A DNA stretch of 64,000 bases from Massilia cavernae (GTDB lineage: Bacteria > Pseudomonadota > Gammaproteobacteria > Burkholderiales > Burkholderiaceae_D): NCBI RefSeq assembly GCF_003590855.1, contig NZ_QYUP01000127.1:1-64000 (forward strand), in the 5' to 3' direction. Each line of letters begins with the position of its first letter. The first letter of the stretch is position 1. This document shows, piece by piece, positions 20,706 to 59,629 of the stretch. The notes below the pieces were generated by a model. It worked only from the letters and a program-made list of their open reading frames with translations. It was not told the origin of the DNA and ran no database searches. The translations under genes and the position numbers were made by a program.

Positions 20706-21608
20706 ATGAACACTGCCAGCATGCTCCGCCTCGTAACGCTCGCCGCGATCTGGGGCAGCTCATTCCTGTTCATGCGGATCGCCGCACCAGTGCTGGGACC
20801 GGCCGTGCTGATCGAATACCGCGTCGGCTTCGCCGCCGTGTTCCTCGCCATCGTCGGCTTCTTCCTCCACAAGCGCCTCGACCTGCGCGCCAACTGGAAG
20901 CACTACCTTGTGCTTGGCCTGCTCAACTCCGCCCTGCCCTTCCTGCTGTTCGCCTACGCCGCGCGCACCCTGTCCGCTTCGGTGCTGTCGGTGCTGAACG
21001 CCACCGCGCCGATGTGGGGCGCCCTGATCGGCGCGCTGTGGTCGCGCCAGGCCATCTCCGGGCGCAGCGCGCTGGGCCTGATCCTCGGCACCGCGGGCGT
21101 CGCGCTGCTGGTCGGTTTCGACCAGGTGACCTCGCTCCCCGGCGCCGGCATCGCGATCTGCGCCGCGCTGGTCGCGGCAATCTGCTACAGCATCGCCAGC
21201 GCCTATGCGCGCACGGCGAAAAGCGTGGAGCCGTTCGCCAATGCCCACGGCAGCATGTGGGCCGCCACCCTGCTCGTGATCCCGGTGCTGCCGTTCTTTC
21301 CCGCACCGGCCGAGCCGACCATCGGCATCATGGGCGCCGCGCTCGCACTGGGCCTCATGTGCACCGGCATCGCTTACGTCCTCTACTTCAAGCTGATCCA
21401 GGACGTCGGTCCGACTTCCGCGCTGACGGTCACCTTCCTCAATCCCCTGTTCGGCATCCTGTGGGGCGCGCTGTTCCTGGACGAAGTGGTCGGCTGGCAC
21501 ACCATCCTCGGCGCGGCCATCGTCATCACCGGCACGGCGCTGGTCACCGGCTTCAAGCCAGCCTTCCTGAGCCGTGCTATCGTTTCGCCCTCGCCCAAGA
21601 CCAAGTAA
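20706..21608 (+). CDS. DMT-superfamily (EamA) transporter
   Basis: The 300-residue product has about ten hydrophobic helices arranged as two EamA repeats. The first repeat starts LAAIWGSSFLFMRIA, with the conserved ARTLSASVLSVLNATAPMW. The second has the matching GPTSALTVTFLNPLFGILWGALFLDEVVG near residues 230-260. These are inner-membrane drug/metabolite exporters; the substrate cannot be predicted. The next gene begins 3 nt after its stop, suggesting co-translation with the glycosylase. Confidence 0.9.
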   Translation: MNTASMLRLVTLAAIWGSSFLFMRIAAPVLGPAVLIEYRVGFAAVFLAIVGFFLHKRLDLRANWKHYLVLGLLNSALPFLLFAYAARTLSASVLSVLNATAPMWGALIGALWSRQAISGRSALGLILGTAGVALLVGFDQVTSLPGAGIAICAALVAAICYSIASAYARTAKSVEPFANAHGSMWAATLLVIPVLPFFPAPAEPTIGIMGAALALGLMCTGIAYVLYFKLIQDVGPTSALTVTFLNPLFGILWGALFLDEVVGWHTILGAAIVITGTALVTGFKPAFLSRAIVSPSPKTK

Positions 21609-21611
21609 GGC

Positions 21612-22508
21612 ATGCCCTTGCAGCAGATATCGATCGAACTTCCAGAAGGCTACCGCAGCGCGGACGTCATGGCTTTCCACGGCCGAGATGCCGAAGGCGT
21701 GGCCGAACAGGTAGCGCCCGGCCGCATCCGCAAGGGCGTCGTTCTCGACGATATTCCGGTCGCGCTGGACATCGCACTGGCGCCACGCCGCGCGACGATC
21801 GACATCGACGCGGGTGGCGCGCTCACGCAGCGCGCGTCGCAGCTGCTGGACGATGCGCTGCTCAACATTCTCGGCTTGCGCATCGATCCGGAACCCTTCC
21901 TGCGTGCGTCTGCCGGCGACCCACTGCTGGGCCCTGTCGTGCAGCGCAATGCGGGCCTGCGCATCGTGCAGTCGGCCACCATTTTCGAAGCGCTCACCTG
22001 GGCCATCATCGGCCAGCAGATCAACCTGAACTTCGCGATCGCGCTGCGCCGCACCTTCATCGTGCAGGCAGGCCGCCAGCACGCCAGCGGATTGTGGTGC
22101 TACCCTGAAGCGGCCGACGTGGCGAAGCTGTCGGTGGAAGACCTGACGACGCGGAAGTTCTCGCGCTCGAAAGCCGAGACCCTGCTGCGGCTCGCGCAGC
22201 TGGTCGACGACGGCGCCCTGTCGCTCGAACGCAGCGACGACATCGAACACGTGTCGGCCTCGCTACTAGCCGTAAAAGGAATCGGCCCGTGGACCGTCAA
22301 TTACGCGTTGCTGCGCGGCTACGGCTATCCCGACTGTTCGCTGCACGGCGACGTCGCGATCCGCGCCGCCTTCCAGCGCCTGCTGGGCGAGGACAGCAAG
22401 CCGGACATGCCGCGCACCGAAGCGCTGCTGGCGCGTTACAAACCGCACCGCACGATGGCTGCGGCACATCTCTGGGCAAGCCTGAATACTCCCAACGAAC
22501 AGTCCTGA
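21612..22508 (+). CDS. alkA: DNA-3-methyladenine glycosylase II (AlkA-type)
   Basis: The 298-residue product is a helix-hairpin-helix base-excision glycosylase. It has an AlkA N-terminal domain, then LTWAIIGQQINLNFAIALRR and the HhH motif AVKGIGPWTVNYALLRG. The catalytic Asp lies in the downstream segment (SLHGDVAIRAAFQ). It removes alkylated purines from DNA. Coupling to an EamA exporter (3-nt gap) is an arrangement I cannot explain functionally. There is no Ada-type regulator next to it. Confidence 0.88.
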   Translation: MPLQQISIELPEGYRSADVMAFHGRDAEGVAEQVAPGRIRKGVVLDDIPVALDIALAPRRATIDIDAGGALTQRASQLLDDALLNILGLRIDPEPFLRASAGDPLLGPVVQRNAGLRIVQSATIFEALTWAIIGQQINLNFAIALRRTFIVQAGRQHASGLWCYPEAADVAKLSVEDLTTRKFSRSKAETLLRLAQLVDDGALSLERSDDIEHVSASLLAVKGIGPWTVNYALLRGYGYPDCSLHGDVAIRAAFQRLLGEDSKPDMPRTEALLARYKPHRTMAAAHLWASLNTPNEQS

Positions 22509-32470: not shown

Positions 32471-32553
32471 GTCATGGAAAAGTTAAGGGGAAATCAATAA
32501 TAGCAAGAATGCCAGCAAGGCATTGTGCGACGACCCGATTTTCCCAGAACCTG

Positions 32554-32940
32554 TCAATAGAAGCGGTTGAACAACACGACGATCCACGATATGGCGGCGA
32601 TGGCCATGGCGACCGCGACTGCGGCGCTGCCGAGGTCCTTGGCGTTCTTCGACAGCGGGTGGCGTTCCAGCGAAATGCGGTCGATCACCGCTTCGATGGC
32701 GGAATTGATGAGTTCGACGGTGAGCACGAACAGCATGACGGCGATCAGGAAAGCCTTCTGGAACGCCGAGATCGGCAACAGCAGCGCGGCGATGGTGCCG
32801 ATGATAACCACCACCACTTCCTGGCGGAAGGCGTGCTCGTGTCGCCATGCGGTGCGGAAACCGTCCATCGTGTTGCGCACGGCGCCGCTGATGCGGCCGA
32901 GGCCGCCCTTGCTCTTGAATTCGCTAACCGGTTGTTCCAT
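32554..32940 (-). CDS. dgkA: Diacylglycerol kinase (prokaryotic DgkA type)
   Basis: The 128-residue integral membrane kinase has three helices (about residues 42-60, 62-78 and 105-124). The family signatures RHEHAFRQE and ELINSAIEAVIDRIS contain the acidic active-site residues. DgkA phosphorylates diacylglycerol released by periplasmic glucan and LPS modification, returning it to phospholipid synthesis. It is divergent from the IclR gene. Confidence 0.95.
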   Translation of the reverse strand: MEQPVSEFKSKGGLGRISGAVRNTMDGFRTAWRHEHAFRQEVVVVIIGTIAALLLPISAFQKAFLIAVMLFVLTVELINSAIEAVIDRISLERHPLSKNAKDLGSAAVAVAMAIAAISWIVVLFNRFY

Positions 32941-33056
32941 GGAGTGTTTTCAAAGAATCATGTAGTACACCATTATGCCCCGCGCGGCGCAAAATATACA
33001 TCGCCAGCCGCACAACATTATGGACGCGCTTCGTTGCCTTATCGTTTCACGATATG

Positions 33057-33078
33057 GTATAAAGTGTTTAACTTATAC
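33057..33078. promoter_or_regulatory. Candidate operator/promoter of the IclR-family gene
   Basis: GTATAA and TTATAC form inverted 6-bp arms with a 10-bp centre, overlapping a TATAAA-like -10 18 bp before the iclR ATG. Just upstream lies ATCGT-TTC-ACGAT. IclR proteins commonly repress their own promoter, so this is a plausible autoregulatory site. Confidence 0.4.
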
Positions 33079-33095
33079 TGCACCGCACCAACCAC

Positions 33096-33878
33096 ATGAT
33101 GAAAATGGAATCAGTCGAACCCGCAAAAACATCGATCCAGGTCATCGAACGCATGGTGGCACTGCTCGACGCCCTGGCCACCTATGCCGACCCGGTCAGC
33201 CTGAAGGAGTTGTCGAAGGTCTCCGGGCTGCACCCTTCCACCGCGCACCGCATCCTGAACGACATGGTAGTCACGCGCTTCGTCGACCGGGTCGAACCCG
33301 GCACCTACCGCCTCGGCATGCGCCTGCTGGAACTGGGCAATGTGGTCAAGAGCCGCCTGTCTGTGCGGGAGGCGGCGCTGGACTTCATGCGCGCACTGCA
33401 CAAGAAAACCCAGCAGACCATCAACCTGTCGGTCCGCCAGGGCGACGAGATCGTCTACATCGACCGCGCTTTTTCCGAGCGTTCCGGCATGCAGGTGGTG
33501 CGTGCGATCGGCGGGCGCGGCCCGCTGCACCTGACCTCGACCGGCAAGCTGTTCCTGTCGGTGGACGAACCGAAAGCCATCCGCGCCTATGCGACGCGCA
33601 CCGGCCTGGCCGGCCACAACAAGAATTCGATCACCGACCTCGCCAGGCTCGAACGCGAGCTGAGCCTGGTGCGCGCACGCGGCTACGCGCGCGACAACGA
33701 AGAGCTGGAACTGGGTGTGCGCTGCATGGCGGCCGGCATCCATGACGATTCCGGCAAGCTGGTGGCGGGTCTGTCGATCTCGGCGCCGGCCGACCGCCTG
33801 CAGGAAGAATGGCTCGAGGACCTGGTGACGACCGCCAGCCAGATTTCGGCGACGCTGGGCTACACGCCAGTGCGCTGA
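33096..33878 (+). CDS. IclR-family transcriptional regulator
   Basis: The 260-residue product has an N-terminal winged helix-turn-helix (SLKELSKVSGLHPSTAHRILNDMV, about residues 35-58) and a C-terminal ligand-binding IclR domain with GRGPLHLTSTGKLFLS and the ELELGVRCMAAGIHD segment. These regulators sense small carboxylates or aromatic catabolites. No catabolic cluster is adjacent, so the ligand is unknown. It is divergent from dgkA. Confidence 0.93.
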   Translation: MMKMESVEPAKTSIQVIERMVALLDALATYADPVSLKELSKVSGLHPSTAHRILNDMVVTRFVDRVEPGTYRLGMRLLELGNVVKSRLSVREAALDFMRALHKKTQQTINLSVRQGDEIVYIDRAFSERSGMQVVRAIGGRGPLHLTSTGKLFLSVDEPKAIRAYATRTGLAGHNKNSITDLARLERELSLVRARGYARDNEELELGVRCMAAGIHDDSGKLVAGLSISAPADRLQEEWLEDLVTTASQISATLGYTPVR

Positions 33879-57916: not shown

Positions 57917-59629
57917 ATGACCAAACCGATCAAATACGCCGCCCTCTGTTCGCTGTCGCTGCTGCTGGCGGCCTGCGGAAGCGACAGCGCCACCGATGCG
58001 CCGGCCACCACCGCGACCGCGTCGCGCGTGTCCGCGCAAACCAGCCAGGTCGAGGTCAGCGCTTACCACGACGTGGTGCAGCGCATCTACGTGGGCTACT
58101 TCGGCCGTCCGGCCGACGCCGGCGGCCTGGCCTTCTTCGCCGGGCGCTTCCGCGACCTCGGTGCGCCGACCAACATCGCCGACATGAGCATCGCCTACGG
58201 TAACAACGCCGACATCCGCGCCCTGATCGACGTGTTCGGCACCAGCGCCGAATCGCAGGCGCTGTATGCGGGCGACAACAGCGTCTTCATCGACGCCATC
58301 TACAGCAACCTGTTCGGCCGCGCCGCGGACCAGGTAGGCAAGGACTTCTGGACCGACGCGATCAACAAGGCCACGTCACGCGGGCCCGCGCCGCGATCCA
58401 GATCATGTCCGGCGCGCAGGGCACCGACGCCGACATCGTCGCCAAGAAGGCTGTGGTGGCGGGCAGCTTCACCACCTCGCTCAACTCGCCGCAGCGTTCG
58501 CTGGCCTACGACGGCCTGGCCGCCAACGTCATCGTGCGCAACCTGCTCGGCTCGGTGGGCTGTCCACCGACACCGCCGCCTTCCAGGGCAGCATCGATTC
58601 CACCTTGGGCACGCTGGTGGCCCAGCTTGGCGCGCAGGGCTTCTACGCCGGCCGCCTGACCGGCAACGGCAACCTGTACAACTCACTGGTACTGGAAAAC
58701 GGCCAGTACTGGGCCTTCTACGCCAGCGGCGGCGCCACCGTCGTGACGCCGACCTCCTTCCTGCAGGGCCAGGGCAACTCCAACAGCGGCGTATTCGCCG
58801 CGCCCGACACCAAGGACTTCGGCCCGGCCCCGCATCGGCGGCCGCCGTCAGCTCCCAGTATTCGCCGCTGGCCAGCCTCAACGGCTCGATCACGGTTGGC
58901 GGCAGTTCCATTCCCTTCACCAGCACCGGTTTCCCGGAAAGCGGCTATGTGTACAACACGCCGGCCAGGCTGTCCGAGGTGGCGGGCAGCTACCGCATGA
59001 GCGGCACGCTGGGCGTGCACAATACGACGATTGCCGCGGACGGCAGCTTCAACGCGTCCCTCGGCGCGTGTAACTATTCGGGCCGGCTGACGCCGCGCGC
59101 CTCGGGCAAGAACGTGTTCGACGCCAGCTGGACCTTCGGCGCCGGCACCTGCCCGCTGTCGGGCCAGACCGGCACCGGCGTGGCGCTCAGCTACATCCCG
59201 GTCGCTGGCGGCACGCGCCTGGTGACCATCGCCGTGACCAATGCCGCGCGCACCACCGGCACCATCATGGCCAGCCTGCCGCCGGCGCTGGCAGCGCTGG
59301 GCGTCACCGACACCGTCGCCGGCGCAGGCGCCGAAGCGACGAACGGCAAGGTGCTCACCGTGAACTACACCGGCTGGCTGTATAACCCCTACGCCGCGGA
59401 CAAGCACGGCGCGCAGTTCGACACCTCGATCGGCAAGACCCCGTTTGTCTTCAGGCTCGGTAACGGCAACGTGATCAAGGGCTGGGACCAGGGCATGGTC
59501 GGCATGAAGGTGGGCGGCAAGCGTATCCTGGCGATCCCGTCGTCGCTGGGCTATGGCGCCATGGGCAGCGGCTCGATCCCGCCGAACTCGGACCTGATCT
59601 TCGAAGTCGAGCTGATCAGCGTCAACTAG
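57917..59629 (+). CDS. DUF4214 lipoprotein fused to FKBP-type prolyl isomerase, with three apparent one-base frameshifts
   Basis: One uninterrupted frame (570 codons) runs from a lipoprotein signal ([12 protein letters not shown]) through a DUF4214 domain (residues ~48-150) to a C-terminal FKBP domain ([13 protein letters not shown] ... [29 protein letters not shown]). Between about 58370 and 58830 the translated frame is nonsense (Arg/Pro-rich). Sensible protein continues in the other two frames: [20 protein letters not shown], then [17 protein letters not shown]. Three single-base losses, near 58367, 58561 and 58834, explain this and together restore the frame. They may be assembly errors or a genuine lesion; the family-like protein would be about 571 residues. 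Confidence 0.65.

Follow-up and report, generated by a model that had tools for sequence, protein, structure and literature searches.

Background

Genes that step from one reading frame to another have been collected in the GeneTack survey, whose authors expect unclustered frameshifted genes with homologue confirmation to be sequencing errors and not true indels (Antonov et al. 2013, PMC3711429). The case treated here lies at 57917-59629, on the forward strand, of a window of 64,000 nucleotides (positions 1 to 64,000 of contig NZ_QYUP01000127.1, assembly GCF_003590855.1) from Massilia cavernae. It resembles these GeneTack cases in having its frame steps in one genome and intact homologues elsewhere, but it differs from them in combining three steps in one gene with a restored frame, to which a plain ORF caller would be blind. 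Gene-fragmenting errors of draft long-read assemblies (PMC12007338) are likewise small, and ORFs are broken or altered by them, as comparison with reference genomes shows; the break rate of M. cavernae was measured differently from that of those drafts.

The closest counterparts of the gene itself are its orthologues in M. soli (NZ_JAFBIL020000007.1, 569 aa) and M. agrisoli (NZ_JAJHPV010000013.1, 567 aa), which share with it the gene neighbourhood, both Pfam domains and 51-72% identity per block, but which run in one frame throughout. A third orthologue, also of 569 aa, is found in the relative G008. Single-frame reading and a shared neighbourhood are thus features of all three genomes in which an orthologue was found, and a conserved frame transition, looked for among them, was absent. 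Thirteen of 16 other species, two of these 13 being incomplete genomes, gave no match to the gene at E 1e-60.

Domains and putative function of the DUF4214-FKBP gene

As read, the ORF encodes 570 aa with a lipoprotein-like start (recognised by eye from the sequence), a DUF4214 domain and an FKBP_C domain. In profile searches, FKBP_C (PF00254, residues 473-567) reaches 98.3 bits against a curated cut-off of 21.1, and DUF4214 (PF13946) also passes, with 38.2 bits against 23.2. The latter match, however, stops at profile position 55, compared with 63-65 in the three relatives, whose bit scores are 48.4-53.6. The intact protein would be a putative membrane-anchored folding helper, carrying DUF4214 on its N-terminal side and predicted to act as a peptidyl-prolyl isomerase of the FKBP type, as suggested by the family and domain names and by the lipobox-like start. 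The predicted structure of the intact M. soli protein, obtained with two input sequences, has a mean pLDDT of 33, and in a literature search DUF4214 and FKBP were not found named together in one paper.

The ORF as read contains an Arg/Pro-rich centre (residues ~153-306, an open shadow reading of 154 codons) in which Arg and Pro make up 36% of residues, and where GC3 is only 0.57, with an odd codon pattern. An earlier note on this DNA had called this centre spurious, and its conservation in relatives, the result that would have refuted the note's reading, was sought in the three orthologues. The equivalent shadow frames carry two stops in G008, four in M. soli and three in M. agrisoli, so that the centre is not conserved in the three relatives and is, on the evidence of these sequences, spurious.

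Location and sense of the frame breaks

When the G008 and M. soli orthologues are placed on the window by tblastn, they fall into four blocks in successive frames, returning to the first (57917-58369; 58315/58366 to 58557/58599; 58560-58832; 58823-59623), with identities of 60-61%, 56-67%, 57-63% and 52-56%, respectively, and with frame steps near 58370, 58558 and 58834. The M. agrisoli orthologue was merged by tblastn into a single poor alignment of 39%, but matches all four blocks when these are compared one by one. A codon-phase model, applied without aligning this gene, switches at 58373, 58561 and 58835; it was trained on 107 genes from relatives, among which their own copy of the DUF4214-FKBP gene may be included. 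Both methods therefore agree with the earlier note, which had described good protein sequence passing through three frames in order and back to the first, with breaks near 58367, 58561 and 58834, each in a short G/C run and each explained by one missing base.

On the forward strand, block 1 (57917..58369, frame A) holds the lipobox-like start and most of DUF4214, and is 60% identical to G008, 61% to M. soli and 72% to M. agrisoli. The first break, located to within a few bases at 58366..58375, leads into block 2 (58375..58557), which contains the end of DUF4214 and the part that follows it, free of stops and with 64-70% identity to the three relatives. The second break (58554..58561, in a short G run) is followed by block 3 (58560..58832), the start of the middle region, equally stop-free and with 53-63% identity to the same three. 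The third break (58826..58835, in C/G runs) returns the reading to frame A in block 4 (58835..59629), where the remaining middle region and FKBP_C (E 6.2e-29) are found, at 51-58% identity. All three breaks were placed by tblastn and the codon-phase model, and each is a -1 step, that is, one base lost or two gained. Fixed tblastn anchors enclose 453 bp in the window and 456 bp in both G008 and M. soli, a net deficit of three bases, one per junction. The earlier expectation, that a homologue with three more bases would be intact in a single frame, was borne out to the base by two of the three orthologues (G008 and M. soli), and all three are single-frame.

The junctions hold short G/C runs of about 2-4 bases, which could speak for phase variation or for programmed frameshifting at each of the three. 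This reading can be practically discarded: the three one-frame orthologues need no shift and already contradict it, typical phase variation needs longer runs than these, and we know of no gene with three programmed shifts.

Conservation and age of the losses

Blocks 2 and 3, which are out of frame in the ORF as read, show 53-70% identity to the relatives, compared with 51-72% for the outer blocks 1 and 4. Within the four blocks, each taken in its own frame, no stop was found, and the GC3 values are 0.91, 0.97, 0.93 and 0.92. Since conservation differs little among the four blocks, which are stop-free and of own-frame GC3 0.91-0.97, the three losses would be either very recent or absent from the cell altogether; an old pseudogene is expected to have drifted.

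A genuine pseudogene, the main rival to consensus error, would have to be very recent, the accessory lipoprotein function having been lost and three one-base deletions having followed soon after. We regard this as unlikely, although it keeps appreciable weight, as the genus seems able to do without the gene, given that no match at E 1e-60 was obtained in 13 of the 16 other species. Relaxed constraint and additional disabling changes were looked for in the four blocks, and neither excess divergence nor internal stops appeared; moreover, every one of the three changes is a -1 step, and neither a stop by substitution nor a larger loss is among them.

The same data bear on the idea of a compensated functional variant, in which two further losses were selected after the first for bringing back the FKBP domain, the protein acquiring a new Arg/Pro-rich centre or linker of ~150 residues. 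Its attraction lies in the end-to-end open reading and the intact FKBP domain, but about 150 residues would have been replaced and DUF4214 cut short (the 38.2 bits given above), blocks 2 and 3 retain the codon pattern of the old frames, and a centre of this kind is precluded in the three relatives by the stops in the relatives' shadow frames. This variant is accordingly held to be very improbable.

Frame breaks elsewhere in the draft

The draft assembly amounts to 5.44 Mb in 201 contigs, is 93.65% complete, and includes the contig of the window at 66.9 kb. Frame breaks without a nearby stop were surveyed with the codon-phase model in 79 stretches (1.226 Mb, 967 kb called coding), the window included. 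Nineteen breaks were found in 15 genes, three of them in the DUF4214-FKBP gene and 16 in 14 others; 15 of the 19 are -1 steps and four belong to the other class. As the model recovered only 26 of 60 planted one-base losses, the true counts are probably higher. With the same model, three relatives gave no break in 279 kb coding and contig C5 of G002 gave one in 746 kb coding; six stretches are common to both controls, which, given also the source of the training genes, are only partly independent. The M. cavernae assembly is therefore richer in breaks than a comparable one (19 in 967 kb against one in 746 kb), a comparison that may flatter the relatives, because the training genes came from the stretches of the first control and partly from those of the second, in which 40 of the 46 G002 stretches lie outside the training.

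Homology supports seven of the 15 broken genes, that is, the DUF4214-FKBP gene and six of the other 14. In a presumably nuclease-like gene on C17 (L098 16930-17711), one base is missing at five places within ~780 bases when the DNA, at 85% identity, is compared with that of three relatives; in one of these, the fifth place lies among other gaps. The C140 gene, which we take to be FemAB-like, cleanly lacks one base at one place and has a net deficit of one at another, again against three relatives. In the presumed fliF-like gene of C19 (L100 18203-18221; these three names were given by eye from the sequence), the break falls near codon 76-81, with 72% and 91% identity to a relative on its two sides. 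Its 89% overall identity to that relative argues against reading the breaks as pseudogene formation.

Single breaks were found in a PAS-GGDEF-EAL gene (C23, L062 6988), an M13 peptidase gene (C15, L096 3105) and a GGDEF gene (C52, L131 7168), in which the EAL, M13 and GGDEF domains, respectively, continue into the next frame. That several broken genes are of this signalling or accessory kind (GGDEF, EAL, M13 peptidase) would suit a recent pseudogene, as would a DUF4214 paralogue with an in-frame TAG on C164. Support is loose for a GGDEF-EAL gene (C14, L095 16242), where GGDEF is truncated at the break and EAL is complete beyond it, and weak for the C31 gene, where DUF885 stays under its cut-off; six further genes (in L065, L093, L094, L099, L116 and L130) are candidates flagged by the phase model. 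Some of these eight may be neighbouring genes.

Two observations on C164 are recorded separately. A PAS-like gene (L065 1203-1961) seems to continue, beyond a frame step, into an EAL-like end, with an internal loss being possible and the domains named by eye. The TAG of the DUF4214 paralogue (L091 2044-2046, on a contig of ~15.9 kb) lies in its N-terminal part, and a DNA search of G002, G004 and G008 brought no closer copy of this paralogue, only its flank and the DUF4214-FKBP gene at 64-68%.

Other candidates were discarded. Frame changes at 21014-22487 and 32524-33875 of the window, seen against G004, arise where G004 ORFs span two neighbouring genes, the G002 ORFs there being one-frame. A looser early phase model also flagged 47414 of the window (a 14-base run), C140 1408 and C164 1203, which are absent from the final model. 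GC drop-out as a cause was not borne out, since the broken genes have a mean GC of 0.659 against 0.646, a value reached by 24% of random draws and not significant. Further, in a census of isolated one-base DNA gaps, most lay outside called coding and relative-against-relative numbers were similar; among the coding gaps, only the C19 case is convincing.

The other genes of the window had been thought intact, and the comparison of 53, 50 and 25 genes with G002, G004 and G008, respectively, upholds this, both flags being those against G004 rejected above. No other broken gene was found in the compared part of the window's contig, and among 128 genes matched to G002 (146 kb) one changed frame. These G002 comparisons left the DUF4214-FKBP gene itself unflagged, tblastn having drawn, in the window comparison, a single long and weak alignment across the breaks. 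Because the compared contig genes are clean and only one of the 128 is shifted, errors in the draft would need to be confined locally and to occur in clusters.

Probable origin of the false reading

The earlier note had left the choice between local sequence error and a compensated pseudogene, a choice that the comparisons uphold, and the breaks elsewhere in the assembly favour error over pseudogene. We consider it probable that the draft carries a local error of sequencing or assembly consensus and that the gene is intact in the organism, since the breaks are scattered over unrelated genes and locally clustered there, and conservation is undiminished here. M. cavernae would then possess an intact, one-frame DUF4214-FKBP lipoprotein gene, of which ~470 bases would be represented in the draft by poor consensus, with three single bases dropped in short G/C runs. 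These losses would sum to one codon by luck and, the shadow reading being free of stops, a gene caller would report an ORF of full length whose centre is false. On this view, the bases would be missing from the assembly only.

How much luck would be needed can be gauged from comparable placements. Of 3000 placed at random in G002 genes, 173 leave the shadow reading open, as do 358 of 4018 at GC3 >= 0.92, so that openness alone is met in 6-9% of cases, a proportion that can also be counted in favour of the compensated variant. Chance would not often produce three losses that restore the frame together with a shadow reading open for 154 codons, an argument weakened by the fact that the gene was noticed because of this very coincidence. 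It is owing to this rarity that the pseudogene and the compensated variant retain some weight beside consensus error.

Concluding remarks

A full-length ORF can conceal several lesions that cancel each other, and the M. cavernae draft calls for careful use, with 15 frame-broken genes flagged in 1.2 Mb, seven of them with homology support. Most likely, the frame-broken gene with its Arg/Pro-rich centre is not a real biological feature. If the losses were true, the locus would give a rare glimpse of protein sequence newly arising through a compensated frameshift.
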